DNA of 34,036 bases, taken from an uncultured Gammaproteobacteria bacterium. Its GTDB lineage: Bacteria; Pseudomonadota; Gammaproteobacteria; Arenicellales; JAANXG01. A program made the position numbers and the translations under genes. The stretch is from contig CAMYIN010000160.1 of the NCBI GenBank assembly GCA_947258495.1, positions 1-34,036 of the forward strand, in the 5' to 3' direction. Of this stretch, positions 5,093-28,346 are shown piece after piece (the first letter of the stretch is position 1; each line of letters begins with the position of its first letter). Below the pieces are notes generated by a model. It was not told where the DNA came from. It saw only the letters and a program-made list of their open reading frames with translations, and did no database searches.

Positions 5093-6391
5093 ATGAAGGC
5101 CTCGAACCATCCTCTGGAATTCACCCGAGCCGCGGTGGACCGAGCCGACGCGCTTCTGCTGGTCGACGGCGAGCGATGGCCGTTGGTGCTGGAAAAATTC
5201 CTGGGCCGGTCGGCTCTGCAACGCAACCTCCTGCAATTGGCGCAGCACGGCGCGAAACACTGTGTTATCGCCGTCTCCGATCCGCAGCAACTCGATGCGC
5301 TGGCGCGTGCCGCCGAGCGGCAATTGCGCGAGATCGACGCAAAGGGGATGTCCTGGCGCTGGGTTGCGCAGGCGGCGCCGGAGACCACGACTGCGGACGC
5401 GTGGGCTGACAACGTGGTTTGTGTGAACGGCGCCGGGGTGTACGACGACCGCCTCTTCGACGCCGTATTTGCGAGCGCGGCGCCTTCGGCCCTCGTCTCC
5501 GGCAGCGGCGGCGAGGCGCTGGGGCTGTTCAAATTGCGCACAGATGACGTCTGTCGGGTACTGCGGGGCGACGCCGAAGAAGCGGGCGTGTGTATCGCCA
5601 AGCTGCCCGGGTTACGCGCCGTCGGCACCGACGGCGTTCCGCGTTACGTCCAGAGCATGCGCCGACACTCACCGCCCTACTGGCAGGCGCTGCGGAATAC
5701 CGCGGACTTGAAGGCCGCCGCGGACAAGGTTATGGGCGCGGCACAGAAAGGCGTACTGGATTTCCCGGCCCGTTATCTGCATCCATTGCCTGAAAATTAT
5801 CTCACCCGCCTCGCCGCCGGGATGCCGATCACGCCGAATCAAATAACCGTATTCTCCGCCGCGTTGGCGTTCGTCGGCACCTACCTTTTTGCGACGCAAT
5901 CCTATGCATTCGCGCTGACGATGGCGGTCGTCGCCGGCATCCTGGACGGCGTCGACGGTAAACTGGCGCGCGTCAAGATGCTCTCCAGTCCATCCGGCGA
6001 CCGCCTCGACCACACGCTGGACATCAGCTTCGAGTTCTCCTGGTATCTCGCCATCGCCTGGGGCCTGTCCCGCAGCCACGAGGATCCTTCGCTGCTCGGT
6101 CTCGGGTTTCTCATGATCGGCCTCATGCTGGCGGCGCGGGCGCTGTCGGGTTCGTATCTGTACTTGACCGGTTACCAGATCCACGATCACACCGCCTACG
6201 ACCGCACGGTGCGATTGTTGGCCGGCCGCCGCAACATCTATGTTCTGGTTCTGCTTACGGGTTATCTGCTGGGAGATTTTTTGTCGTCGTTCTACGTGGT
6301 CATCGCCTGGGGGCTCGCCACGGTATCGCTGTATCTGCTTCGCAACGCGGTGGCGATCATGCAAAAATACGCAAAGCTGCAGACGCCTTGA
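5093..6391 (+). CDS. CDP-alcohol phosphotransferase fused to a degenerate nucleotidyltransferase domain (paralogue 2)
   Basis: The ATG at 5093 gives 432 residues. It is a paralogue of the product at 994-2301: the same two-part layout, and matching segments such as a QKG(S/V)LD(W/F)PA linker, ITPNQ(V/I)T, GILDG(I/V)DGKLARVK and GRRNIYV. Here the CDP-alcohol phosphotransferase motif is complete: D285-GV-D288-G289-KL-A292-R293, then G302-DRL-D306-HTL-D310, so catalysis is expected. The N-terminal ~180 residues are nucleotidyltransferase-like but lack the GxGxR loop, so CDP-alcohol synthesis there is doubtful. About six membrane spans fill the C-terminal half. It follows the flippase by 35 bp and precedes a radical SAM gene, probably one operon. 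Likely role: adding a phospho-headgroup to a membrane acceptor; the exact substrates are unknown. Confidence 0.88.
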   Translation: MKASNHPLEFTRAAVDRADALLLVDGERWPLVLEKFLGRSALQRNLLQLAQHGAKHCVIAVSDPQQLDALARAAERQLREIDAKGMSWRWVAQAAPETTTADAWADNVVCVNGAGVYDDRLFDAVFASAAPSALVSGSGGEALGLFKLRTDDVCRVLRGDAEEAGVCIAKLPGLRAVGTDGVPRYVQSMRRHSPPYWQALRNTADLKAAADKVMGAAQKGVLDFPARYLHPLPENYLTRLAAGMPITPNQITVFSAALAFVGTYLFATQSYAFALTMAVVAGILDGVDGKLARVKMLSSPSGDRLDHTLDISFEFSWYLAIAWGLSRSHEDPSLLGLGFLMIGLMLAARALSGSYLYLTGYQIHDHTAYDRTVRLLAGRRNIYVLVLLTGYLLGDFLSSFYVVIAWGLATVSLYLLRNAVAIMQKYAKLQTP

Positions 6392-6458: not shown

Positions 6459-7457
6459 ATGTCAACGATAAACCCGTTCGAGGGGACGATATACAAGATC
6501 CGCTACCAGGTGAGCAAGGTGGTGCTGCCAAACTCCCCTTCCGCTTCGTCGATTCCGTTCGTCGAATACATCAAGTGGCAGTACTTCAAGAATTTCACGC
6601 CGAACTATCCGTTTTCCATCGACATACAAACCAGAAGCGGCTGCAACGCGCGCTGTACGTTCTGCGGCGTGGGTCGCGAGGAAAACAAAATCAAGGGGGT
6701 AATGAGCGACGACCTTTTTCATAAGATCGTCGATGAGGCGTTGACGTTTCCGTTGTTACAGAAAATCAATCCGTTCCTCCTGAACGATCCGCTCGTTGAC
6801 AAGAAATTAGAGGAGCGGATCGAGTACATTTCGCGAAAGAAGGGCAAACGGCGTTTGCCGCAAGTCAGGCTGATCACCAACGCGGGCTTGATGACGGAGG
6901 AAAGGGCCTATCGTCTGCTGCACTCCGGACTGGACGAGCTCAACATCAGTTTCCACTCGATCGTGCCGGACGTCTACGAAGCCATGATGACTCCGCTGAA
7001 GTTCGACAAGGTGATGGAAAACGTCCTCAAGCTCGTTGAGCTGCGCGATCGTATGCGGGCACGGAAAAAACCCCGAATCAATGTATGGACCGTGTTGACC
7101 CGACCCGTGGAGCGGAATCTGAGAAACGAAAAATCGTATTGGAAGAAACTCGGAGTCGGTTTTGTTGCGCGCAAGCTCGACAATCGCGCCAACAGAACGG
7201 TCGAGGACGCGCGGCTCGGCGGACGTCCCATGGACCTCGTACAGATTTGCCCAATCCCGTTTTGGCGGGCCTGGGTCATGTGGAACGGCGACATGATCAT
7301 GTGCTGCGTGGATCAGGAGCGCACGAACTTTCTGGGCAACTGCGCCCACCGATCCATGCGGGACATCTGGAACGATACCGCGTACCAAACCCTCAGGCAG
7401 AACTGGCGCACACGCAATCTCGACGGTCTGTTGTGCAACCGCTGCAAGGGTTCTTGA
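6459..7457 (+). CDS. Radical SAM/SPASM domain protein
   Basis: The ATG at 6459 gives 332 residues. The cluster motif CNARCTFC supplies Cys62, Cys66 and Cys69. A C-terminal region with CPIPFWRAWVMWNGDMIMCC, a later NC, and a terminal LCNRC matches a SPASM auxiliary cluster (the Gx4C step is NGDMIMC). A basic, aromatic N-terminal extension of ~50 residues precedes the barrel and could contact a membrane. It ends the plus-strand set flippase-phosphotransferase-radical SAM; 67 bp separate it from the phosphotransferase and no strong ribosome site is visible. Related SPASM proteins modify peptides, sugars or other molecules, so the reaction is unknown. It is not an obvious recent duplicate of the radical SAM protein at the left edge. 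Confidence 0.88.
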   Translation: MSTINPFEGTIYKIRYQVSKVVLPNSPSASSIPFVEYIKWQYFKNFTPNYPFSIDIQTRSGCNARCTFCGVGREENKIKGVMSDDLFHKIVDEALTFPLLQKINPFLLNDPLVDKKLEERIEYISRKKGKRRLPQVRLITNAGLMTEERAYRLLHSGLDELNISFHSIVPDVYEAMMTPLKFDKVMENVLKLVELRDRMRARKKPRINVWTVLTRPVERNLRNEKSYWKKLGVGFVARKLDNRANRTVEDARLGGRPMDLVQICPIPFWRAWVMWNGDMIMCCVDQERTNFLGNCAHRSMRDIWNDTAYQTLRQNWRTRNLDGLLCNRCKGS

Positions 7458-7848: not shown

Positions 7849-9303
7849 TCAGTCGGGCGGCAGCCAGGGCAGCACCAGGGAATCCGCGACCGCAGTGCGA
7901 ACGCGAGGGTGCGTGATGAGTTGCTGCATTTCGACATCTTCCAGGTCCCGCAGAATCTTATCCAGCACACCTTTCACTTTCGTGATCGATCTTCCGATCC
8001 GGGCCTCCGCCAAGGTGATGACGGCGATCACGTCGTCCGGACCTTTAGGCAGGGAATCGCTGTCGAATCCGATGATCCGGCCGATCGCGCGGCCCACGGT
8101 CGTCCGTGCACGGATTTGTCGTAGAGCCCAACGATTTATCGGGTAGCGGAACGGAAATTTCTCCGGTCTCAGGCTGCGCTCGGAAAACTGCCGGCGAAAT
8201 TCCCGGTCCACCAGCTCGCGCGCCAACAGGTTGGAGAACTGGCCGTTGTCCACCCAGCCGCAACAGGTGAAGCGATCGTCGAGCAGATAATCCACCGGCG
8301 TAAAGATGTTGAAGAACTCGTACCCGAGGCGGCTCAGGTTCTCCCGAATTCGCGGATTCCTTATTCGGCTTCGCGTTACCGCCGGTCGCAGACCCGCGTC
8401 GCGGTGCAGAAATCTGCCGACGCTGGTACAGGACATGTAGCTTCGATCTTCGTCCTCCGTGTCGAAGTTGTAACCTGCGACCCGGTCAAAGATGGCGCCG
8501 GCGGCGCTATTGAAGGCCGTGGTGTTGTCCGTGGAAAGATCCCGATGGCGATAGACCTCCGTATAGGCGCTGAATCTCGGCCCCAGAAACACGTTCAGAG
8601 GCACCGGACGCACCCCCTTTTCGTAGGTCTCGATAACCACGGGATAGCGCCGGGCGCCGTCTTCCAGGACGGCAAAGAACGCCGAATGCGACGAGAACCC
8701 CTTGGGATCGCTCAAGGACGTGTATACGCCGTTGCCGTCCAGATTGACGTTGGTCAGCAGCACGTCTCCCGGCCGGAAGTGGACCCCTCGATAGTGGACG
8801 CCGTCACCGTCAAAGCGGTACTGGCTGAAGGCCACATCGTGCTTCCATCTTCGAAACGTCCATGCCGAACTGCGGTTCGCGACGATGTCTAGGGCCGCGC
8901 CCGGGCCCGCGACGGCATGGAACTGAGGATGCTGCCGCGACCTGAGCCCCTGGGAAGCCAGGATACGCGCGAACTCGTCGCCGCCGCCGACCAGGCTTTC
9001 CACGGTCCGCCGCCGTTCCGGCGGCAGAAATACCCCGAGCGCAAGAACGATTTCGGACAACGCCCGAGGTTTTCGATTCACCCAGGGCGGTGGACTTGCG
9101 GTCAGCCGCGTCAACACGCGCGCGCGCCAGAGAATCGCGGCCAGCTTGAATTCTGCAGCTTCTGCAGCGCCGGCGTTGTGCCGGTCGAAAGTCAAGTAAG
9201 CGTGGTGGACGTCACGAACCCAGGCCAACGCGCGATCCGGCGACGCCAACACGTCGGCGGGTGACTGCGCTAGTAAGCCTTGAAGCGTCTGCAACTGCTG
9301 CAC
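7849..9303 (-). CDS. YiiX/YebB-like permuted NlpC/P60 (papain-like) hydrolase
   Basis: The frame starts at a GTG at 9303 (an in-frame stop lies 15 bp upstream) and encodes 484 residues. The middle carries the permuted NlpC/P60 order: FRPGDVLL, then SSHSAFF with His206, VIETYEKGVRPVPL with Glu225, and the catalytic Cys292 in YMSCTSVGRF near the end of the domain. This His...Cys order is typical of the YiiX/LRAT-like group. About 170 N-terminal and 150 C-terminal residues are unassigned and there is no clear signal peptide. Family relatives hydrolyse amides or esters or move acyl groups, some on lipids. It is the last gene of the minus-strand operon, 59 bp after the RND exporter. A role in deacylating or remodelling the exported lipid is inference. 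Confidence 0.75.
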   Translation of the reverse strand: MQQLQTLQGLLAQSPADVLASPDRALAWVRDVHHAYLTFDRHNAGAAEAAEFKLAAILWRARVLTRLTASPPPWVNRKPRALSEIVLALGVFLPPERRRTVESLVGGGDEFARILASQGLRSRQHPQFHAVAGPGAALDIVANRSSAWTFRRWKHDVAFSQYRFDGDGVHYRGVHFRPGDVLLTNVNLDGNGVYTSLSDPKGFSSHSAFFAVLEDGARRYPVVIETYEKGVRPVPLNVFLGPRFSAYTEVYRHRDLSTDNTTAFNSAAGAIFDRVAGYNFDTEDEDRSYMSCTSVGRFLHRDAGLRPAVTRSRIRNPRIRENLSRLGYEFFNIFTPVDYLLDDRFTCCGWVDNGQFSNLLARELVDREFRRQFSERSLRPEKFPFRYPINRWALRQIRARTTVGRAIGRIIGFDSDSLPKGPDDVIAVITLAEARIGRSITKVKGVLDKILRDLEDVEMQQLITHPRVRTAVADSLVLPWLPPD

Positions 9304-9362
9304 CCCGATGCGGTCACTTCATCCACCTCACGATACCTTCGGCCACGGGTACTTCCGTTGAT

Positions 9363-11819
9363 TCACCGTCGCCCGGTGACGTCCGCGTGCCATTGAAGAA
9401 TGGAAGGAAACAGCGTAAGCGAACTCAACATACACGCCCCGAGCCCGATGCACGCCACTAATCCCAGCGACTGCAGTCCTTGATTGGACGCAGTCAGCGT
9501 GCCGGCAAAACCAAGCATCGTCGTCAATGTGGTGAGGAAGGCAGCGGCGCCGGTGGTTCTTATCACGTGCACCAGCTTTTCAGCGCCCTCTTCCCGGTAA
9601 CGGTGGTGAATATGGATCGCGTTGTCGATCCCGATCCCCAAGACCGTGGGGAGCACCACCATGTTGAAGACGTTCAAACGCACGTTCAACACCGCCATGA
9701 TGCCCAGCATCCACAGGAACCCCACGGTGACCGGTATGAGCACCAACAACACCTGTGTCGGGCGGCGGAAGGCCAAGGTCAGGGTGATGACGATCGCGAT
9801 CAGCACCGCGGCGATGGCAAGCGAGGCGTCGTTCTTCATGAGATTGAGCATATCGACGAAGATCATCGCTTCGGTGGCCGGATAATAGGTCTTGCCGTTC
9901 ACCGTGATCTCTCGAATGTCCTCGACGAACGCCTGCGCCTCGTCGAGTTTCGATGTGCCTTTGAGATTGTAGATATACACCAGATAACCGCCCGAACCGG
10001 GAATCCCGGTGTAAATGCGCTGCAGTTCCGGCGGCAGGTCGCTCGGTTTCAATTCCGATACGCCCAGATAACCCATCAGCTTCCTCAATTCGGATTGCTT
10101 GTTGTCGTCCTCTTTGAAATCTTCCAGCAGCTTCAATGCTTCCGCCAACTGATCATGAATACGATCTATGACCTGGATGCGTTGTTTTTGCTCTTCGCTT
10201 TCGGGCACCACGCTGTATATGGATTTCACCTTCTCGATCGTCGGTTCCCCCACGGCCTCACCCAGGTCCCGGATCGACTCAACGGCGTCCACCACCGCTT
10301 TCACGTCTTCCAGGGTTTCGACGAAGACGACCGCCTTGTCGGAGCGCAGCGGAAACACGTCCGTGATCTTGCGCTTTACGTCGTCCAAATGCGGCACCCT
10401 CGTCTTCAGCCTGCCGAAATCATCCTCGAATTCGAGTTGATGCAACACCACCAGACTGAGCACAGACGCCATGACGCCGACAACCAGCATGGTGTTCGCG
10501 AACGGGAACGTGCCTTGCCTTTCTCCCGCTGCCGCCTGTGGACGCGGTCTGCGATAGAGCCGCACGCGCTCCGCCAGAACCACGAGGGCCGGGAACACGA
10601 GGTACATGGACAGCAGGGTGAAGGCGACGCCGGTCCCGGCAATGAATCCGAACTCATAAAACGCGCGGAAATCCGTGACCATCAAGGAGAAGAAACCGGC
10701 AATGGTGGTTACGGCGGCGAGCAGAGAAGCGTGGCCGGTTCTTCGATAGATCGTTGCCAGGCCCGATTCCAGGCCCCCTCCGCTGCGGCGAACTTCGTCG
10801 TAACGCGCCAGGTTGTGGATGCCAAAATCGATCCCCAGACCGAACAAGATCAGCACGAGAAAAATCGTGATCAAGTTCAACCCCCCCAGCACTACCGCCG
10901 TGAGCGCGAACGTCCACGAGAAACCGATGAGCAACGGAATGCCGATGTACAACAGAGAAGTTATGCGCCGGTAAAACAAGACCACCACCAGGCAGATCGC
11001 CGAGAGCGACCAGACCGCGCTGGTCTTGATGTCGCTCATGATGGCGTCGAACTTGGCGACGAGATTGACCACACGACCGCCAAGCTCGACGCGCATGTCG
11101 GGGTGGTATTTCTCCGGATTTACCAACCTGATGCTGTCCTCGAGTTGTGCTATGACCTTTTTTGAGTAGGCGACGTTCGTCGTCCCGCCCTTCGGCATCA
11201 CGACCAGAATCACCAGATCCCCGGATTTGTTCTGGAAAAGTTTCTTTTTCTTGGTGCCGTCTTTGCCACCCTCGTACTTATCTTGTATGTCGTCGAAGTC
11301 CAGAGACGGCGGGCGCTGTCCGGTCCCACGTATGGTGATCTCAACCGGCGTGTCTTTGACGCTGAACTTCAGGTGTTTTTTCTCATAGTCGATGCGGACG
11401 GCCAGTCTGCGGTCTATTTCTTCTAGATCCGTTGCATCGGCGTAAAGCAAGCGGTTTTTTTCAAAGATGGCGGTGTTTTCGCTGTACTCCGCGCTGTTCA
11501 CCCAATCGTATTTGAGGACTTCGGAGCGGAGGTCTTCGAGGAATCGCAATGTCGAGTCCAGATCCGGCGATTCCACCAGAATCATGGCATGACTGTACCC
11601 TCCGGTTTTTTCGATCACCGCCCGCAGATTTTCGACGCTCTGCACACCGTCGGGCATCAACGAGACGATATTGGCATCCAGTTTCAGCGTCTTTGCGAGC
11701 TGAAAGCAGTAATAGCCCGATGCGATTGCAGCGATGAGTATCAGCCAGTAAAGGCGAATTACGCCGGTGACGATCCAGCGGATTAACGTTGACTGCGGAC
11801 TGTCTTCAGTTTCGGCCAT
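9363..11819 (-). CDS. RND/MMPL-family lipid exporter (HpnN-like)
   Basis: The product is 818 residues from the ATG at 11819. A first span lies near residues 15-33, then a ~220-residue periplasmic loop, a block of five or six spans with LFGLGIDFGIHNLARYDE, a second large loop and a second block with LGIGIDNAIHIHHRYREEG. This internal duplication and the GxGxD-type motifs in the fourth span of each half are characteristic of MMPL/HpnN exporters, shorter than ~1030-residue drug-type RND pumps. Family members use proton flow to move lipids such as mycolates or hopanoids towards the outer membrane. It sits between a secreted lipocalin-like gene (54 bp gap) and the YiiX-like hydrolase, so a lipid cargo made by the upstream palmitoyltransferase genes is likely. 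No hopanoid genes are visible. Confidence 0.88.
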   Translation of the reverse strand: MAETEDSPQSTLIRWIVTGVIRLYWLILIAAIASGYYCFQLAKTLKLDANIVSLMPDGVQSVENLRAVIEKTGGYSHAMILVESPDLDSTLRFLEDLRSEVLKYDWVNSAEYSENTAIFEKNRLLYADATDLEEIDRRLAVRIDYEKKHLKFSVKDTPVEITIRGTGQRPPSLDFDDIQDKYEGGKDGTKKKKLFQNKSGDLVILVVMPKGGTTNVAYSKKVIAQLEDSIRLVNPEKYHPDMRVELGGRVVNLVAKFDAIMSDIKTSAVWSLSAICLVVVLFYRRITSLLYIGIPLLIGFSWTFALTAVVLGGLNLITIFLVLILFGLGIDFGIHNLARYDEVRRSGGGLESGLATIYRRTGHASLLAAVTTIAGFFSLMVTDFRAFYEFGFIAGTGVAFTLLSMYLVFPALVVLAERVRLYRRPRPQAAAGERQGTFPFANTMLVVGVMASVLSLVVLHQLEFEDDFGRLKTRVPHLDDVKRKITDVFPLRSDKAVVFVETLEDVKAVVDAVESIRDLGEAVGEPTIEKVKSIYSVVPESEEQKQRIQVIDRIHDQLAEALKLLEDFKEDDNKQSELRKLMGYLGVSELKPSDLPPELQRIYTGIPGSGGYLVYIYNLKGTSKLDEAQAFVEDIREITVNGKTYYPATEAMIFVDMLNLMKNDASLAIAAVLIAIVITLTLAFRRPTQVLLVLIPVTVGFLWMLGIMAVLNVRLNVFNMVVLPTVLGIGIDNAIHIHHRYREEGAEKLVHVIRTTGAAAFLTTLTTMLGFAGTLTASNQGLQSLGLVACIGLGACMLSSLTLFPSILQWHADVTGRR

Positions 11820-11873
11820 GAATGAGCAAGGTATCGGCGGCCGCTGCGGTCTCCGATCACCGAATTCGCGGAA

Positions 11874-12980
11874 CTACCGGCGCCTCAGGGTCATGACTTC
11901 GGCGAGGGCCGAGCCTCTCAATCGCCTTTCGCCGTCTTCGCCCGGATAGCTCAACTCGTAATGCGCCAGATAGCGGTGATGTGTCGGTGTATTCAGCAAG
12001 CGTACGAACAATCGCTCAATCGGCTTGAGTTCTTGAATCGGATCGAATCGCTGCAGCAGGCGTGTGAAGCTGATTTTACCCTTTAACACGCCCCCGGCTA
12101 CCATCTTTTCCCAGCGCACGGTTTCCGGCAGTTGGCCTTCAGTCCCGCCCGCGTTGTCGGAAGCGGTCAGGGTGACCGGGAGCTGTGACCATTGCCGCTG
12201 GATTCGTCCGCCGCCGACAACGGCGAGAAAAACCGCCGGTTCCGCATCCGGTCGTTGCACAAGATAGAAAACGGGAGCGCTCGCCGTCGGTGTCTCCAGC
12301 GGCGCAAGTCTGATCCACGTGCGGGCCACCCTGGCGAGTGAGCTGCTGTTGACGTGGCGAACGGCGAATCCGCGACCGTTGCTCAGCGTCCGCCACGGCT
12401 GCAGATCTCCGCGGCTCTGCGAACCGCGTCGGAAACGTCCCCGCGCCTCGGCCTGCGGCATGAGAAACGATGCGTAGTGATATTTTTCGCCCCCAGAGTC
12501 GGGAACACGACCTGGACGCCAGGTTTCCACCGACGCCTGCAGCGTCAGCTCGATCTCTCCCCTGCTGTTTCCCATATACAGACGGTAGTGCGGATGCGCT
12601 CCGCTGAAGCGGTGCCGCGCCACCCTCAGATCCAGCTCATGATCATCGAAGCTCCAGTCCTTGCGCCCGCGCCCGTTTTTTATGATCAACGGTTCGCCGC
12701 CGTCGGCGGGCAACAACGTGCCGATGACCAGTGCGCGATGATCGGTAGGGCCGAAATTGCTGATCAAGAGCTGGACCGCGAGGAACGCGCCGTCGTCAAA
12801 CAGGAAATATTGATCCCAACCCTCGGTGTACAGCTCTTTGCCAAGCAGAACCGGACGGTGGTCGTCGATCTGGACGGGATCGGCGAGCACGGCCAATGGC
12901 CCTAGAAAAGGAGCGACGAACGCCAGGATCCACGCCGGTAGTGCGCCGGTACGGCAAATTGCGAGGTTGATCAATTGCAT
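11874..12980 (-). CDS. Secreted lipocalin-like protein (Svf1/CrtC-type fold)
   Basis: From the ATG at 12980 the product is 368 residues with a hydrophobic N-terminus and probable signal-peptide cleavage after VLA at ~33. An ATG at 13052 would add 24 basic residues before the signal. The mature part opens with a TEGWDQYFLF segment, then FGPTDHRALVIGTL and repeated strand patterns, which resemble Svf1 and hydroxyneurosporene-synthase-like lipocalin proteins; this is a family-level resemblance only. Lipocalins bind hydrophobic molecules, which fits a periplasmic carrier. It lies 133 bp after the palmitoyltransferase-like gene and 54 bp before the RND exporter, on the same strand. Carriage of a lipid between the inner-membrane exporter and the outer membrane is inferred. 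No lipobox is seen. Confidence 0.65.
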   Translation of the reverse strand: MQLINLAICRTGALPAWILAFVAPFLGPLAVLADPVQIDDHRPVLLGKELYTEGWDQYFLFDDGAFLAVQLLISNFGPTDHRALVIGTLLPADGGEPLIIKNGRGRKDWSFDDHELDLRVARHRFSGAHPHYRLYMGNSRGEIELTLQASVETWRPGRVPDSGGEKYHYASFLMPQAEARGRFRRGSQSRGDLQPWRTLSNGRGFAVRHVNSSSLARVARTWIRLAPLETPTASAPVFYLVQRPDAEPAVFLAVVGGGRIQRQWSQLPVTLTASDNAGGTEGQLPETVRWEKMVAGGVLKGKISFTRLLQRFDPIQELKPIERLFVRLLNTPTHHRYLAHYELSYPGEDGERRLRGSALAEVMTLRRR

Positions 12981-13113
12981 GCGGTAAGCCGTCTTGACGA
13001 TGAACTTCGTGACGCGTGACACCGGAGCGAGCGCAAGGTACGGCGCCGGCATCCGGCGGTCTTGGTGTAGGGCGGGGACCGGCCCGCGGTGCGGCGAAAC
13101 GGGCGACAACCGA

Positions 13114-14349
13114 CTAGTTGATGAGTCCCATTTCGCGCCCCACCTGCGCGAACACATCCAACACCAGGTCCAGATGCTCTACCGTGTGGGTCGCCATGCA
13201 GCTCGTGCGAATGAGCGCCATGCCGGGCGGTACCGCGGGATACAGCACCGGACTCGCGAACACCCCGCGATCGAACAAACGGCGCCATGTGTACAGCACT
13301 TTTTCTTCATCGCCGACCATCACCGGAACCACGGGTGTTTCGCTGACGCCGGTGTCGAAGCCGAGACCGCGGAAACCGTCACGCAGGTAGTTCGCGTTCC
13401 GCCACAGCCGCTCCCTGCGCTCCGGCTCGTTCTCTATGATGCGCAATGCCGCCAACGCGGCGGCCACCGGCGCCGGTGGCAGGCTCGCGGAAAATATCAG
13501 TGCTCGCGCGTGATGCTTCAGATAGTCGATCACGTCGGCGTCCGCCGCCAGGCACCCCCCTATCGTTGCCAGCGACTTGCTGTATGTGCCCATGATCACG
13601 TCCACTTCGTCCTCGAGCCCGAAATGCTCGGCGGTGCCTCGGCCGTCTCTTCCTAAAACACCGATGCCGTGGGCGTCGTCCACCATCAATCCGGCACCGT
13701 ACCGGCGGCAAAGCTCGACGATCCCCGGCAGGTCCGCGACATCGCCTTCCATGCTGAATACACCGTCGACGACCACGAAGCCGGCCCTGCCATCGCTTCC
13801 ACGCAGGATCCGCTCCAGATCCGTCATGTCGTTGTGTTTGTATTTCCGGATCTGTCCGAACGACAGCCTGCAGCCGTCGAAAATACTCGCGTGATTCAGC
13901 TTGTCGATCGCGATGACGTCCTGTTTTCCCACCAGGGCCGAAATTGCGCCCAGATTGGCCTGGAACCCGGTGGGAAATACGATGGCCGCCTCCTTGTGCA
14001 GAAATTGCGACAATTGCTGCTCCAACTCTTCGTGTATCGACAGGGTCCCATTTAAAAAGCGAGAGCCCGCGCACCCGGTACCGTAACGACGCACCGCATC
14101 GATCGCCGCCTCCTTGACTTTGGGATGACTCGTCAACCCCAGATAATTGTTGGAACTCATCATGATCATAGGGCGACCGTCGCAGACGACCTCGGGTTCC
14201 TGGGCGGATTCTACCGTGTGGAAATAGGGATAAATGCCCGCCTCAATCAGCTCCCGGGCGCGGGTGAATTTCTGGCATTTTTGAAAGATGGCGGCGCGCG
14301 GGCGGCGCGTCTCTTGTTGTTCGGCGAGAATTCGGTTTGTCATAGCCAA
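13114..14349 (-). CDS. spt: Serine palmitoyltransferase-like alpha-oxoamine synthase
   Basis: The product is 411 residues, the normal size for soluble bacterial serine palmitoyltransferase. It is a fold-type I PLP enzyme: H153 (LNHASI) stacks on the cofactor, VDDAHG (D224-G228) binds its pyridine nitrogen, and K258 in GTYSKSLATIGG is the Schiff-base lysine. The N-terminal segment GIYPYFHTVESAQEPEVV followed by SSNNYLGLTSHPKV is a hallmark of serine palmitoyltransferases rather than BioF, HemA or Kbl. The reaction would join serine and an acyl thioester to give 3-ketosphinganine, the first step of sphingolipid synthesis. Its start overlaps the end of the CerR-like gene by 10 bp, a strong sign of translational coupling. 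Substrate choice (amino acid, acyl-CoA or acyl-ACP) is not proven by sequence. Confidence 0.88.
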   Translation of the reverse strand: MAMTNRILAEQQETRRPRAAIFQKCQKFTRARELIEAGIYPYFHTVESAQEPEVVCDGRPMIMMSSNNYLGLTSHPKVKEAAIDAVRRYGTGCAGSRFLNGTLSIHEELEQQLSQFLHKEAAIVFPTGFQANLGAISALVGKQDVIAIDKLNHASIFDGCRLSFGQIRKYKHNDMTDLERILRGSDGRAGFVVVDGVFSMEGDVADLPGIVELCRRYGAGLMVDDAHGIGVLGRDGRGTAEHFGLEDEVDVIMGTYSKSLATIGGCLAADADVIDYLKHHARALIFSASLPPAPVAAALAALRIIENEPERRERLWRNANYLRDGFRGLGFDTGVSETPVVPVMVGDEEKVLYTWRRLFDRGVFASPVLYPAVPPGMALIRTSCMATHTVEHLDLVLDVFAQVGREMGLIN

Positions 14350-15323
14350 TGTTGTTGTTGATACCAGCGAACCAGCTGTTGCATCCCTTGCGGCAATGCG
14401 GTCTGCGGCGCATACCCGAGTTCGCTCATAGCTTTGCCGACGTCACAGACCCAGTTCTTTTCCAGTAACTCCGCCGCGCGTGCGGCGTTCAGACGTACAG
14501 GTCGCTTCGCGACAGACCCGTAAACCTGTCCCAGCGCCGCCGCGGTGCGGAGACACCATTTTGGCACTATCAGGTGCCGTGCGTCGATGCCCAGTGCCGC
14601 ACACACCGCCCGTTCCACTTCGCTCCACGCGTACGGCCTCTGGTCCGCGAGAAAATACACCGCCCCGGCCGCCGCCGACGATTGCGCCGCGTTGACCACC
14701 GTGCGGGCCAGGTCCTCGACCTGGCAAAGGCTGACGGTACGCGGTACGCGGCCGAATTCTAGCAGGAAACCGCGTTTTGCCATGCGCACGTAGGGCAAAA
14801 AGTTTCCGTCGCGGGGCCCGTACACCGCACTGGGTCGCAGGATCACGCTGGGAATGCGGTCCCGCAGAGATGCAACGTGACGCTCGGCGAGCAGTTTGCT
14901 CTCGCCGTACGCCGACAGGGGTCGCGGCGGGTCGCGCTCGGTGACTCCCCGATCCGGGTCCGCAGCCGGACCCGCGGCCGCCTGGCTGGAAATGAAGACG
15001 AAACGCCGCAGTGCGCGGGCGTGCTCGCCGCAGGCCGTGAGCAGATGGTAGGTTCCGGACGCATTGACCCGAAAATAATCCGAACGCCGAGCGGCCCAGG
15101 TCACGGCGGCGGCGTGGACGACGATCTCTGCGTCCACGACCGCGGGCGCCAGCGTCTCCGGCCGGGTGCAATCCCCAACGGCCAGCTCGATGTCCTTCCC
15201 CTCGAGCCAGCCGAGGCGGGTCGGCGATCGCACCAGGCAGCGGACGCGATGTCCGGCGCGCAGAAACGCATCGACGAGATGACTGCCGACAAAACCGGTG
15301 GCGCCGGTGACCAGTGTAACCAC
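14340..15323 (-). CDS. NAD(P)-dependent epimerase/reductase, CerR-like
   Basis: The GTG at 15323 gives 327 residues and starts the Rossmann fold immediately with the TGATGFVG loop (G7, G10, G13). The catalytic Y139-GES-K143 (YxxxK) follows a FISSQAA strand. This is the extended short-chain dehydrogenase layout. In Caulobacter-type sphingolipid synthesis an enzyme of this family, CerR, reduces 3-ketoceramide. The start lies two bases after the RNase D stop and its end overlaps the palmitoyltransferase start by 10 bp, so the three are translated as one unit. Function as a ketoceramide or ketosphinganine reductase is inferred from this pairing; sugar epimerases share the same fold. Confidence 0.8.
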   Translation of the reverse strand: MVTLVTGATGFVGSHLVDAFLRAGHRVRCLVRSPTRLGWLEGKDIELAVGDCTRPETLAPAVVDAEIVVHAAAVTWAARRSDYFRVNASGTYHLLTACGEHARALRRFVFISSQAAAGPAADPDRGVTERDPPRPLSAYGESKLLAERHVASLRDRIPSVILRPSAVYGPRDGNFLPYVRMAKRGFLLEFGRVPRTVSLCQVEDLARTVVNAAQSSAAAGAVYFLADQRPYAWSEVERAVCAALGIDARHLIVPKWCLRTAAALGQVYGSVAKRPVRLNAARAAELLEKNWVCDVGKAMSELGYAPQTALPQGMQQLVRWYQQQHWL

Positions 15324-15325
15324 GA

Positions 15326-16447
15326 TCAGACCCGTTCCCTTTGCTCGCGGTCCGTTTCCAGTTCCGCGATCAAATCGCGGCCGACGAGTTGGTATCGCCA
15401 CCCTTGCACCAGCGGTTGGCCTTGCGGGTCGCGCACGAATTGCCGCATTTCCTTCTTCGTCGCTATCAGCGACGCGGAGATCTGCTGCGCCTTCGCCGTC
15501 TCGTTGATCCGGCGCGCCAGCCACTCCACCGTGCGCTGCTGCCGCTCGCCGAGTCGTGCTCGCGGCCGCCAGACGACGCCCTCGCGGCCGCTGCGCAGAG
15601 ATTCACCGACCACGGACAACACCGCATCGGCATGGCGATCGAGAAAACGTGCAGACAATCCCTTTACTCGCGATAGTTGCGTCCTATCCAACGGCCGCGC
15701 CGCTGCAATGGCGAGGAGTTGCTTGTCGTCCACGATCCAGTTCCTCGGCAGATCCTTGCTCTGCGCGGTCCGCTCGCGCCAGCGGGCGAGGCGCTTCAAG
15801 ATCTGCTGCGACGGCGGTTCCAGGACATGCCCACGGCGCAACCGTCGGTACGCCTGCTCGGGATTCATCGCGTACAGCTCCGGATCGAGCAGCCGCCGGC
15901 ACTCCTCCTCCAACCACTCGCGACGATCTCGGCTCCGGAGTTGCGATTGCAGTTCGTCGTACAATGCGCCCAGGTAGCTTACGTCCTCGTAGGCGTACTC
16001 GAGCTGGCCGGCGGTCAGGGGCCGAAGACACCAATTGGTGCGCGTCTCCTGTTTGGAAAGCGTACGACCGACCAGCGTCTCCACCAGCGCCGCGTAGCTG
16101 ACCTGGCGTCCGAATCCGAGCATCGCCGCGGCGATCTGGGTATCAAAGACCGGCTGCGGAACCTGACCGCAAATATGGTATAAGACCTCCAGATCTTGCC
16201 GGGCCGCGTGAATGATCTTGATCTGCTTCGAACCACGCAACAATTCCTGCAGGGGTTCGAGCGACTCGCACCGCAACGGATCGATGCCTACGACCCCGTC
16301 GTCGCTCGAGATCTGCAGCAGGCAACATCGCGGATAATAGGTCCGTACCCGCAGGAATTCCGTATCGATGCCGATCCAGGGGAGGGATGCCAGTGTGCGG
16401 CAACACTTATCCAGTAGTCGGACGTCTTCAATGACGAGTAAACTCAC
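15326..16447 (-). CDS. rnd: Ribonuclease D
   Basis: The GTG at 16447 gives 373 residues, matching RNase D (E. coli 375). The DEDDy exonuclease domain is complete: D28 and E30 in IDTEF, D85 in HAARQDLE, and Y151 with D155 in EYAYEDVSYL. The RTYYP and SKQETRTNW segments are also characteristic, and an HRDC-type helical region follows at ~210-290. The enzyme trims the 3' ends of tRNA and other small RNAs in the cytoplasm. It is the first gene of the minus-strand run that continues into the CerR-like gene (2 bp gap) and the palmitoyltransferase. Only 33 bp separate it from the divergent membrane-protein gene. Confidence 0.95.
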   Translation of the reverse strand: MSLLVIEDVRLLDKCCRTLASLPWIGIDTEFLRVRTYYPRCCLLQISSDDGVVGIDPLRCESLEPLQELLRGSKQIKIIHAARQDLEVLYHICGQVPQPVFDTQIAAAMLGFGRQVSYAALVETLVGRTLSKQETRTNWCLRPLTAGQLEYAYEDVSYLGALYDELQSQLRSRDRREWLEEECRRLLDPELYAMNPEQAYRRLRRGHVLEPPSQQILKRLARWRERTAQSKDLPRNWIVDDKQLLAIAAARPLDRTQLSRVKGLSARFLDRHADAVLSVVGESLRSGREGVVWRPRARLGERQQRTVEWLARRINETAKAQQISASLIATKKEMRQFVRDPQGQPLVQGWRYQLVGRDLIAELETDREQRERV

Positions 16448-24587: not shown

Positions 24588-25568
24588 ATGTTTCAGAGAA
24601 ACAAACTTGTCGTGTCACTGCTGGCCGCCTCGGCCATCGTGTTGTCTTTCTTCTCCGCGCCGGTGGTGCGGGCCGATACCTTTATCACCATCGGCACCGG
24701 CGGCGTCACCGGCGTCTACTACCCCACCGGCGGGGCGATCTGCCGGCTGGTGAACAAGGGACGCAAGGAGCACGGTATCCGCTGCTCGGTGGAAAGCACC
24801 GGCGGCTCGGTCTACAACCTGAACACCATCGCCGCTCAAGAATTGGACATGGGGGTTGCGCAGTCCGACTGGCAGTACCACGCCTACAACGGCACCAGCA
24901 AGTTCGAGGAAAAAGGCCCCAACAAGGACCTGCGGGCGGTGTTCTCCGTGCACCCGGAACCGTTCACCGTGGTCGCGCGCGCCGATTCCGGCATCAAGAC
25001 GTTTGCGGATCTCAAGGGCAAGCGCGTCAACGTCGGCAATCCGGGTTCCGGTCAGCGCGGCACCATGGAGGTGGTGATGGCGGCGTTGGGATGGAAGATG
25101 TCCGATTTCGCGCTGGCCTCGGAGCTCAAGTCTGCGGAGCAGGCCTCCGCTTTGTGCGACAACAAGATCGACGCCATCGTCTTCACCGTCGGCCATCCTT
25201 CGGGGTCCATTAAGGAGGCCACCACGTCCTGCGACGCGGTCGTGATCCCGGTGGAGGGACCGGCCATCGACAAGCTGGTGACGGAGAACGCGTATTATCG
25301 TACCGCTACCATTCCCGGCGGCATGTATCGCGGCACCGACGCGGACGTCAAGACCTTCGGCGTGGGCGCGACCTTCGTCTCGTCGACGAAGACCCCGACG
25401 AATGTCGTCTACAACGTCGTCAAGGCGGTATTCGAGAACTTCGACGATTTCAAGAAACTCCACCCCGCGTTTGCAAACCTGGGCAAGAAAGAGATGATCA
25501 AGGACGGTCTGTCGGCGCCCCTGCACGACGGCGCTGCCAAGTACTATAAAGAAGCCGGCTTGATGTAA
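24588..25568 (+). CDS. TAXI-family TRAP transporter solute-binding protein
   Basis: The ATG at 24588 follows a strong GGAGGAG site and gives 326 residues. A signal peptide of ~29 residues ends VVRA-DTF. The mature protein opens [26 protein letters not shown], the TAXI receptor signature, and continues with [26 protein letters not shown] and CDNKIDA. The protein binds a solute in the periplasm and hands it to the fused permease encoded downstream. The ligand cannot be predicted; glutamate-like ligands are known for some family members. A long hairpin between the two genes may keep the receptor mRNA more abundant. Confidence 0.95.
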
Positions 25569-25576
25569 CGTCAACG

Positions 25577-25611
25577 TAACGGGGGACGACTTCCGCAGTC
25601 GTCCGCCGTTA
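25577..25611 (+). promoter_or_regulatory. Intra-operon hairpin after the receptor gene
   Basis: TAACGG-G-GGACGACT (25577-25591), loop TCCGC, then AGTCGTCC-G-CCGTTA (25597-25611) form a 14-bp stem with one internal mismatch. There is no T-tract, so it is more likely a 3'-end stabiliser or partial terminator than a full stop. This is common between binding-protein and permease genes with unequal expression. Confidence 0.6.
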
Positions 25612-25757
25612 TCACTTATCAAACAGTGGGAACACCGGCGTGCAGCGAGCCGGTCGGCGCCCAGCAGGAGCCCCTGCTCCCTCAAGCGATTGCTTGTCCA
25701 AGCAGCACAGGAGGCGGTCTGCGACCGCGTCAGCAACAGTCCGGGGGGACAATTGCC

Positions 25758-28346
25758 GTGAGCGAACCGCAACAGTCAGACCGGAGCACCGCCCGCACGG
25801 GGCTCGAGGAGATGATTGCCGAGACCGACACCGGGGCGCGATCGCCGGCCGGTTTCGCCGGCGCGCTGCTGCTCATCATTCCCCTGGTGTGGTCCCTGTT
25901 TCAACTGTGGTACGCGTCGCCGCTGCCATTCATGTTCGGGGTCGGCGTCCTCAACGACACCGAGGCGCGCGCCATCCATCTCGCGTTCGCCATCTTTCTC
26001 GCCTACACCGCGTACCCGACGGTCAAACGCTCGCCGCGGGATTACATCCCCATCCAGGACTGGGTCGCGGCGCTGGTGGGCGCGTTCTGCGCCGCCTACC
26101 TGTTCCTGTTCTACGAGGCACTCTCCGATCGTCCGGGCGATCCCACGACCTACGACCTCGTGGTCGGGGTCGTGGGACTGGCGCTGCTGCTGGAAGCCAC
26201 CCGGCGCGCCCTGGGACCGCCGCTCATGGTGGTCGCCGGGGTGTTCCTGCTCTACACCTTCTTCGGCCCATACATGCCGGACGTCATCGCCCACAAGGGC
26301 GCGAGCCTTTCCAAGGGCATGTCGCACTACTGGCTCTCCACCGAGGGCGTGTTCGGCGTCGCCCTCGGCGTTTCCACGTCCATGGTGTTCCTGTTCGTGT
26401 TGTTCGGTTCCATGCTGGAGAAGGCCGGGGCCGGCAATTACTTCATCCGCGTGGCCTTCGCGCTGCTGGGGCACATGCGCGGCGGGCCCGCGAAGGCGGC
26501 GGTGGTGTCGTCGGGCATGACCGGCCTCGTCTCCGGCTCTTCCATCGCCAACGTGGTCACCACCGGCACCTTCACCATCCCGTTGATGAAGCGCGTCGGC
26601 TTCCCCGCGGAGAAGGCCGGGGCGGTGGAGGTGGCCTCCTCCACCAACGGGCAGCTGACGCCGCCGATCATGGGGGCGGCAGCGTTCCTGATGGTGGAAT
26701 ACGTGGGCATCTCCTACGTCGAGGTGATCAAGCACGCCTTCCTCCCGGCCATCATCTCGTACATCGCCCTGGTGTACATCGTCCACCTGGAAGCGATGAA
26801 GGCCAACCTCGAGGGCCTCCCCCGGCGCACGCAGCGCACCCTGGTGCAGAGCCTGCTGTCGTTTCTCATGACGGTGATCGGATTGATCGTGCTCTCCGCC
26901 GTGGTCTACTACGGCCTGGGCTGGATCAAGACCGTCGCCGGCGGGGCCACGCCGTGGATCGCCACCGCGCTGCTGATCGCCGCCTACGTCGCCCTGCTCG
27001 CCTACGCCGCCACGGTGCCGGAGCTCGACACCAGCCACGCCATCGACGAGCTTCCCGAGGCCGGTCCCACCATCAAGTCCGGGCTCTACTTTCTGCTGCC
27101 GGTCGTGGTGCTGGTGTGGTGCCTCACCGTGGAGCGGCTCTCTCCCGGGTTGTCGGCGTTCTGGGCGGCGGTGTTCATGGTCTTCATCGTCGTCACGCAG
27201 CGACCCTTGTCGGCCGTTCTGCGCAAGCGCGGGGATCTGGCCGCGGCCGCGCGGCACGGTTTTCGCGACCTGCTCGACGGACTGGTCTCCGGCGCCCGCA
27301 ACATGATCGGCATCGGCGTCGCCACCGCCGCCGCCGGTATCGTCGTCGGCACCGTCACCATCACCGGCATCGGCCTGGTGATGACCGAGTTCGTGGAGTT
27401 CATCTCCGGCGGCAACCTGGTGCTGATGCTGATTTTCACCGCCATCATCAGCCTCATCCTGGGCATGGGCCTGCCCACCACCGCCAACTACATCGTCGTC
27501 TCCACCCTGATGGCGCCGGTCATCGTCACCCTCGGCGCGGAATCCGGCCTCATCGTGCCGCTCATTGCGGTGCACCTGTTCGTGTTCTATTTCGGTATCC
27601 TCGCCGACGACACGCCCCCCGTCGGCCTCGCCGCGTTCGCCGCCGCCGCCATCTCCGGCGGCGATCCGATCCGCACCGGCATCCAGGGCTTCACCTACGA
27701 CATCCGCACCGCCATCCTGCCGTTCATCTTCATCTTCAACACCGAGCTGCTCATGATCGGTATCGAGAACGCGCTGCACCTGATTGTCGTCGTCGCCGCC
27801 GCCGTCGTCGCCATACTCACCTTCGCCGCCGCCACCCAGGGGTTCTTCTTTACCCGCAGCCGCTGGTGGGAGACCCTGGCCCTGCTGCTGGTCGCGTTCA
27901 CGCTGTTCCGCCCCGGCTTCTGGTGGGACGAGATCTACCCACCCCTGGAATCGGTGGCGCCCACGCAACTGCTGAGCATGGCGGAAGGCGCTGTGCCCAA
28001 GGCGATGCTGCGCATCACCCTGGAAGGCGACACCCTGGAGGGCGACCGCGTGAAAAAGACCGTCATGCTGCCCATGGGCAGCCCGGGCCCGGGGGAACAA
28101 CGTCTCAAGGACGCGGGCCTGGGCATCCGTGAAGAGGACGGCAAGATCCTGGTGGACAACATCGTCTTCGGCAGTGCCGCGGAAAAGGCCGGCGTGGATT
28201 TCGACTGGGAGATCCTCGGCATCGAACGGCCGGTGGACCGTCCGCCCAAGCAGCTGATGTTCCTGCCCGCGCTGGCCCTGCTGGGCCTGGTGGCGTTCTT
28301 ACAGCGCGCCCGCCGCCGCTCGGCGGAGCAACCGGCGACGGCGTGA
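25758..28346 (+). CDS. Fused TRAP transporter permease (DctQM-type) with C-terminal DUF3394 domain
   Basis: The GTG at 25758 lies after a GGGGGGAC stretch and gives 862 residues; an in-frame GTG at 25626 would add 44 hydrophilic, hairpin-encoded residues and is less likely. After ~30 soluble residues come about four spans (the small DctQ part) and then a long DctM part with many spans, including SSGMTGLVSGSSIANVVTTGTF and LGMGLPTTANYIVV, which are hallmarks of the family. The last ~170 residues end with a DUF3394/PDZ-like segment (DNIVFGSAAEKAGVDFDW). The protein imports the solute captured by the TAXI receptor using an ion gradient. It is 189 bp after the receptor gene. Confidence 0.95.
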   Translation: MSEPQQSDRSTARTGLEEMIAETDTGARSPAGFAGALLLIIPLVWSLFQLWYASPLPFMFGVGVLNDTEARAIHLAFAIFLAYTAYPTVKRSPRDYIPIQDWVAALVGAFCAAYLFLFYEALSDRPGDPTTYDLVVGVVGLALLLEATRRALGPPLMVVAGVFLLYTFFGPYMPDVIAHKGASLSKGMSHYWLSTEGVFGVALGVSTSMVFLFVLFGSMLEKAGAGNYFIRVAFALLGHMRGGPAKAAVVSSGMTGLVSGSSIANVVTTGTFTIPLMKRVGFPAEKAGAVEVASSTNGQLTPPIMGAAAFLMVEYVGISYVEVIKHAFLPAIISYIALVYIVHLEAMKANLEGLPRRTQRTLVQSLLSFLMTVIGLIVLSAVVYYGLGWIKTVAGGATPWIATALLIAAYVALLAYAATVPELDTSHAIDELPEAGPTIKSGLYFLLPVVVLVWCLTVERLSPGLSAFWAAVFMVFIVVTQRPLSAVLRKRGDLAAAARHGFRDLLDGLVSGARNMIGIGVATAAAGIVVGTVTITGIGLVMTEFVEFISGGNLVLMLIFTAIISLILGMGLPTTANYIVVSTLMAPVIVTLGAESGLIVPLIAVHLFVFYFGILADDTPPVGLAAFAAAAISGGDPIRTGIQGFTYDIRTAILPFIFIFNTELLMIGIENALHLIVVVAAAVVAILTFAAATQGFFFTRSRWWETLALLLVAFTLFRPGFWWDEIYPPLESVAPTQLLSMAEGAVPKAMLRITLEGDTLEGDRVKKTVMLPMGSPGPGEQRLKDAGLGIREEDGKILVDNIVFGSAAEKAGVDFDWEILGIERPVDRPPKQLMFLPALALLGLVAFLQRARRRSAEQPATA

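Follow-up and report, generated by a model that had tools for sequence, protein, structure and literature searches.

We analysed a 34,036-nucleotide stretch of DNA (the window). It makes up contig C160 of G000, a metagenome-assembled genome (MAG) of 3.18 Mb from an uncultured gammaproteobacterium (74% complete, 3.6% contamination). An earlier note on this DNA had read five genes at 7849–15323 as a serine palmitoyltransferase (SPT) paired with a CerR-like reductase, in one run with genes for lipid export. The region probably is an operon for sphingolipid synthesis and delivery, and its first four genes belong to a unit that is conserved in the gammaproteobacteria where it is found. In reading direction, the five genes are as follows.

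14340..15323, minus strand: CerR-like NAD(P)-dependent reductase, an extended short-chain dehydrogenase/reductase (SDR); GTG start; Pfam Epimerase 3.7e-37; motifs TGATGFVG and YGESK
13114..14343, minus strand: SPT-like, pyridoxal phosphate (PLP)-dependent alpha-oxoamine synthase; ATG start, with TTG 14349 as alternative start; Pfam Aminotran_1_2 6.5e-62
11874..12980, minus strand: secreted protein with a predicted double-calycin (AttH-like) fold (AlphaFold2 and Foldseek), a candidate lipid carrier in conserved order
9363..11819, minus strand: MMPL/HpnN-like resistance-nodulation-division (RND) transporter; Pfam MMPL 2.4e-37
7849..9303, minus strand: YiiX/C92 permuted NlpC/P60-like thiol enzyme of 484 aa; Pfam Peptidase_C92 below gathering score, with matching homologs

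All five minus-strand open reading frames (ORFs) are open and collinear, and the gene run on one strand is thus real. The cerR gene follows an RNase D gene by 2 bp, and gaps of 133, 54 and 59 bp separate spt from the carrier gene, the carrier gene from the MMPL gene, and the MMPL gene from the YiiX-like gene, respectively. The 10-bp overlap previously given for spt and cerR holds if spt starts at TTG 14349, but the likelier start is ATG 14343, with which the overlap with the cerR stop is 4 bp. A scan for promoters and terminators was uninformative, with 3 promoter-like sites where 2.7 were expected and 11 terminator-like sites where 7.7 were expected.

The protein encoded at 13114–14343 was compared with known members of its enzyme family. 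In a PDB search, the best match was the Sphingobacterium SPT at 438 bits, followed by BioF/Kbl (320), the Sphingomonas SPT (296) and a cysteate acyltransferase (276). Among the NCBIfam models, SerpalmtaseCFB scored best (538 bits), above the betaproteobacterial (411) and alphaproteobacterial (333) SPT models. A quick IQ-TREE tree with 68 rows puts the window protein into one group with both known SPTs (SH-aLRT 97–98), apart from E. coli Kbl, BioF, Rhizobium HemA and a T. thermophilus enzyme; the root is weak and several reference branches, including that of the Sphingomonas SPT, are long. A placement with BioF or Kbl, named by the earlier note as what would overturn the assignment, was not found, while quorum-signal synthases were compared by profile score alone (228 vs 538 bits), as CqsA was left out of the tree. 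The motifs HASIFD, DDAHGIG, TYSKSLATIGG and LIRTSCMATHT align with the Sphingobacterium SPT, and we take them to hold the PLP lysine and other active-site residues. The tree and the PDB match support the SPT assignment, and in the tree the protein does not go with Kbl, BioF or HemA.

An extended SDR is encoded directly beside spt, the two genes overlapping, so the pairing of SPT with a CerR-like reductase is borne out. In Caulobacter, SPT and CerS (ceramide synthase) are cytoplasmic and CerR is periplasmic, according to the part of PMC11087976 consulted. The window protein opens straight with the Rossmann motif (residues 6–13), and by eye no clear signal peptide is seen; ketone reduction in this organism may therefore be cytoplasmic.

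Conservation of the gene order was examined in public genomes, where a scan for SPT yielded at least 80 loci: seven with the core genes (L005–L011), three SPT paralogs and 70 others. In all seven, which come from uncultured Gammaproteobacteria at 78–86% identity, cerR, spt and the MMPL gene are in order, and a full carrier gene lies between spt and the MMPL gene in six, with a remnant in L010. In the 70 other loci listed, which span many phyla, neither a carrier nor an MMPL gene was found by tblastn or by the carrier and MMPL profiles. A CerR-like SDR is encoded no more than 3 kb from SPT in 26 of these 70, a GNAT-like acyltransferase in 39, and both in 24, though only 40 of the loci extend that far in both directions. 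The neighbourhood survey that the earlier note had proposed therefore finds carrier and MMPL genes with SPT in window-type loci, but not in other SPT loci.

Co-occurrence was scored in a set of 60 genomes, G000 and 59 relatives. The carrier is present in 13 (as a remnant in G007, E 1.4e-5), an SPT of the window type (598–930 bits) is present in the same 13, and both are absent from the other 47, where the SPT-type matches listed reach 302 bits at most. All but one of the 13 belong to the window's family, of which 13 members were sampled; the exception in the family, G009 (77% complete), lacks both. The remaining genome, G054, is the sole one of 10 sampled genomes of family f10 with SPT or carrier, and it holds the whole unit (locus L105), as if the genes had moved together. 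Across the class, the carrier was found in 4 of 369 sampled genomes, namely G000, G169, G285 and, with a weak match, G376; in G169 and G285, from a third family, the order is cerR-spt-carrier-phosphotransferase-MMPL. In total, 15 genomes from three gammaproteobacterial families have the unit: 13 have it whole, G012 has it broken across two contigs, and in G007 the carrier gene is decayed. Because the first four genes keep their order at about 28–86% protein identity over three families, the order is not due to chance; the MMPL transporter and the lipocalin-like carrier candidate do form a conserved set with SPT and CerR. The co-occurrence of SPT and carrier owes part to common descent.

Incidentally, G000 contains a second cerR-spt-carrier-MMPL fragment (L004, C72:1-3416), in which SPT is 86% identical and the carrier is very like that of L009 by eye; it is probably a mis-binned contig from a relative. 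MAGs bearing the unit also have a second, stand-alone SPT paralog at 67–71% identity (L012, 10001–11185; L013, 10001–11224; L084, 6424–7608), with no cerR, carrier or MMPL match within the stretch examined. Other arrangements are also notable. On a Rubrobacter radiotolerans plasmid (L138, 4923–8290; actinobacterial), SPT, a CerS-like GNAT and an NAD(P)-dependent oxidoreductase are adjacent under generic annotations, and on a Methylocystis plasmid (L139, 4122–6251) a 709-aa protein that is SPT-like in its later part adjoins an acyl carrier protein, an AMP-binding protein and a polyketide synthase. A divergent set in G053 (L150, 1132–4909) brings together an SDR, a CerS-like GNAT and an alpha-oxoamine synthase of 30% identity, and appears to be another alpha-oxoamine lipid system.

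The third gene of the unit encodes a protein with a signal-peptide-like N-terminus by eye. The window protein has no Pfam match, and its profile found no match among PDB sequences. An AlphaFold2 model from 7 sequences (pLDDT 66, pTM 0.67) matched 26 PDB chains in Foldseek at E ≤ 0.001, including AttH (2ich, TM 0.53/0.60), and no viral model at that threshold; on the predicted model, the protein has two lipocalin-like barrels as in AttH. AttH, CrtC and Svf1 are grouped as double-calycin proteins, and we take the other Foldseek neighbours to be of this kind as well. At a loose Pfam threshold, eight carrier members gave one Svf1_C match (L005, E 0.088), two DUF6139 matches (best 6.6e-4), one AbrB-like match (0.047) and four without any.

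The surroundings of the core contain further genes of interest, which are listed with the neighbour before cerR.

15326–16447, minus strand: RNase D, before cerR in reading direction
6459..7457, plus strand: radical SAM/SPASM protein (Pfam); collinear with the core in L005–L009
5093..6391, plus strand: IPCT-DIPPS-like protein, with a predicted nucleotidyltransferase-like N-domain and a CDP-alcohol phosphotransferase with intact motif; collinear with the core in L005–L009
3420..5057, plus strand: polysaccharide-type flippase; Pfam Polysacc_synt 3.5e-11; collinear in L005–L009
2346..3176, minus strand: OlsC/LpxO-like lipid acyl 2-hydroxylase (Asp_Arg_Hydrox); Pfam 9.6e-59; NCBIfam OlsC 251 bits
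994..2301, minus strand: second CDP-alcohol phosphotransferase-like protein with broken signature motif, from domain scans

The earlier note had missed a second block near the core, made up of genes for a CDP-alcohol phosphotransferase (head group), a flippase, a radical SAM protein and an OlsC/LpxO-like hydroxylase. In L005–L009 this block lies downstream of the core on the same strand, and in the window it is rearranged over both strands. The 5093–6391 protein retains the CDP-alcohol phosphotransferase motif D..DG..AR(8)G(3)D(3)D; its model (pLDDT 72, pTM 0.48) matches the Archaeoglobus IPCT-DIPPS best (E 1.2e-11, TM 0.41/0.43) and also RmlA-type nucleotidyltransferases. The hydroxylase is closest to OlsC (251 bits against a cut-off of 450) and LpxO. 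In G285 and G169, the unit itself contains a head-group-type gene. Farther away in the window, at 24588–28346, an NMT1-like binding protein is followed by a 906-aa DctM/DUF3394 TRAP (tripartite ATP-independent periplasmic)-type permease.

Eight stretches around CerS-like genes of other gammaproteobacteria were also examined, CerS-like here meaning a GNAT-like candidate of the type linked to SPT. An SPT-like gene is present in four of the eight and a CerR-like gene in six. In L207, a hydroxylase homolog adjoins the CerS-like gene, and the stretch has an SPT of the Sphingomonas type some 7.6 kb away from that hydroxylase; a CDP-alcohol phosphotransferase-like gene is present in L201 and L202, about 10.6 kb from SPT in the latter. 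The hydroxylase and phosphotransferase neighbours thus lend modest support to a predicted sphingolipid role.

We infer the substrate, the order of steps and the transport with its direction as follows. SPT would make 3-ketosphinganine from serine and a fatty acyl thioester. The second chain would be attached by an N-acyltransferase that homology does not pin down in G000, and the CerR-like enzyme would reduce the ketone. The OlsC/LpxO-like enzyme would probably hydroxylate an acyl chain, and the IPCT-DIPPS-like phosphotransferase would probably add a phospho head group. The flippase may turn the lipid over. MMPL would then extract it from the inner membrane's outer leaflet and hand it on to the secreted double-calycin protein, which would keep it shielded in the periplasm on the way to the outer membrane; this last route is suggested by likely topology and gene linkage. 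We favour a sphingolipid operon because of the SPT grouping, the conserved four-gene unit, the co-occurrence of SPT and carrier, the head-group and hydroxylase neighbours, and the double-calycin-type fold. Of the pathway proposed earlier, SPT, CerR and the link to MMPL and carrier are supported, a part for the YiiX-like gene in export is not, and export itself is still conjectural.

Several observations weigh against this reading. The window SPT misses the curated SerpalmtaseCFB cut-off (538 vs 640 bits), as do four of six further SPT loci (532–567), with two from Chitinophagaceae passing (664 and 690). The Pfam scan of 20 window proteins, small ORFs left aside, showed no acyl carrier protein or acyl-ACP ligase. 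For the carrier, the tie to Svf1 is sub-threshold and the DUF6139 match in another member is stronger, Svf1_C (PF17187) had no match in 19 genomes, and most of the named structural neighbours are enzymes. In G007 (L111, about 9510–9680), the carrier is a C-terminal remnant next to intact SPT and MMPL genes, and no outer-membrane partner was identified for the proposed carrier route. Finally, the sphingolipid reading is drawn from genes, with every function in it deduced from sequence.

The YiiX-like gene is a different case. In the window protein, Peptidase_C92 scores 22.9 bits against a gathering score of 27, but each of the eight YiiX homologs has a C92 match with E ≤ 0.01, the strongest at 1.4e-8. 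The His, Glu and Cys motifs FSSHSA, ETxEKG and YxSC, whose residue roles are assigned by analogy, are invariant in the eight; the profile had no match among PDB sequences. Homologs occur in 7 of the 59 relatives, never on the contig of the SPT unit, and none was found in the other 368 of the 369 class genomes with at most two candidates scored per genome. The gene is thus not a conserved member of the unit, which includes it in one of 15 genomes, and its earlier assignment to the export route is not upheld.

The distribution of YiiX was compared with that of CerS. CerS-like GNATs are present in G001, G003–G006 and G054, whereas G169 and G285 have a weaker one (158 bits, 31%), and YiiX is present among the SPT genomes in G000, G002, G007, G008 and G010–G012. 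At E ≤ 1e-6, the two occur together in none of 16 genomes, and all 15 SPT genomes have one of them. CerS-like genes are also found without an SPT of the window type in G013 and G053. In G001, G003 and G005, an NYN gene and a conserved neighbour flank CerS. CerS is missing at this syntenic place in three YiiX genomes (G000, G002 and G007) with no tblastn remnant, the neighbour being missing too in G007; G002 is nested in a CerS-bearing clade. No CerS-like GNAT was found in G000 as a whole, which is 74% complete. Because the syntenic place itself was examined, the loss there is independent of completeness, and a copy in the missing part of the genome is possible elsewhere. Another candidate for ceramide synthase, FemAB_like PF04339, was set aside as uninformative since 59 of 60 genomes have it, with or without SPT.

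We lean slightly towards the explanation that YiiX has no part in the pathway, or acts as an amidase cleaving off acyl chains, and that its exclusivity with CerS reflects coincidental gene loss in a small clade. YiiX adjoins a GroEL-like gene (named by eye) in four g4 genomes and lies at other sites in G002, G007 and G009, the last of which has YiiX without SPT. Moreover, only three independent contrasts exist on the tree, all opposite, which is not significant alone (sign test p 0.25). An amidase activity is proposed for YiiX in the part of PMC3142127 consulted. On the other hand, zero overlap has a chance of 1.6e-4 if the labels are independent, one of the two genes is present in every SPT genome (two with the weak CerS homolog), and CerS is gone from its syntenic site in three YiiX genomes.

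We also propose, as a rather doubtful possibility, that the YiiX-like enzyme replaces CerS, given the mutual exclusivity and the missing CerS at the syntenic place in G000. It would be a second, non-homologous ceramide synthase adding an acyl chain to 3-ketosphinganine, and the window copy would have joined an operon with a dedicated MMPL and double-calycin route. As a permuted NlpC/P60 thiol acyltransferase, it might take the acyl chain from a phospholipid, like LRAT/HRASLS enzymes; as a precedent, YiiX binds a fatty acid, although the authors of PMC3142127 propose an amidase. On the lineage tree, YiiX and GNAT-type CerS would then have replaced one another three times or more, whichever way each change went.

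An alternative for the carrier, unlikely but worth keeping in view, is that it is a periplasmic lipid-modifying enzyme (hydratase, lyase or isomerase) and that MMPL alone transports. Its Foldseek neighbours include kievitone hydratase, pericyclases (entries pericyclase, Fsa2, Phm7 and CghA) and 25-phosphosteroid lyase, so that judging from the model it may act on a lipid instead of carrying one. For the carrying function that we prefer, Svf1 offers a lead: it has two lipocalin domains and is a potential ceramide transfer protein of yeast (PMC10583516, consulted in part). The sequence tie is not significant and does not imply membership.

Very improbably, the unit serves hopanoid or sterol handling, with MMPL as HpnN and the reductase as HpnA-like: these are the best NCBIfam models for the two proteins (272 and 132 bits), but both scores are far below the cut-offs (752 and 368), three of the 13 SPT genomes have a squalene-hopene cyclase C-domain above cut-off (one of them with a strong match), the incomplete G000 not being among them, and SPT is not known to take part in hopanoid synthesis. 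The HpnN identity of MMPL was set aside on these grounds.

Among the literature matches listed (titles and abstract openings), there was no report of an MMPL-calycin-SPT unit, which is no proof of its absence from print. Known systems resemble parts of it. HpnN and BstA are, like the window MMPL, MMPL/HAE3-type RND proteins within lipid gene clusters, whereas the window MMPL scores far below both cut-offs and has different partner genes. The carrier shares its predicted fold with AttH, CrtC and Svf1, but it lacks a significant Pfam Svf1 match, is secreted and is encoded with SPT. LnsA and the HRASLS/LRAT enzymes are, like YiiX, permuted NlpC/P60-type thiol enzymes, tied to lipid N-acylation. 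In the part of PMC7387801 consulted, LnsA is needed with LnsB for lipoprotein N-acylation in Staphylococcus, its own share of the reaction being unseparated, and HRASLS N-acyltransferases are a further precedent; unlike LnsA, the window enzyme has 484 aa and lies in an SPT operon. If the exclusivity of YiiX and CerS is functional, there would be a second chemistry for bacterial ceramide formation.

The closest comparison is the Caulobacter sphingolipid cluster (aasR-cerR-acpR-spt, with cerS separate), as given in the part of PMC11324152 consulted. Alike are the adjacent spt and cerR, the close head-group-type genes and a cerS outside the operon. In another gammaproteobacterial stretch (L206), a CerS candidate lies beside a fatty acyl-AMP ligase, SDR, acyl carrier protein and SPT in this very order, matching the Caulobacter scheme. 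In contrast, no acpR or aasR is among the window proteins scanned, and the window SPT fits the CFB model better than either proteobacterial one. PMC11324152 states that how sphingolipids reach the outer membrane is not known and suggests an Lpt-like route for Caulobacter, and no sphingolipid flippases or transporters had been identified according to the consulted part of PMC11087976. The transport candidates of Caulobacter are LptC2/F2/G2 and a flippase, whereas those of the window are MMPL and the double-calycin protein; SPT and CerR together with an MMPL transporter and a secreted protein of a lipid-binding-type fold provide named genes for the question of how bacterial sphingolipids cross the envelope.

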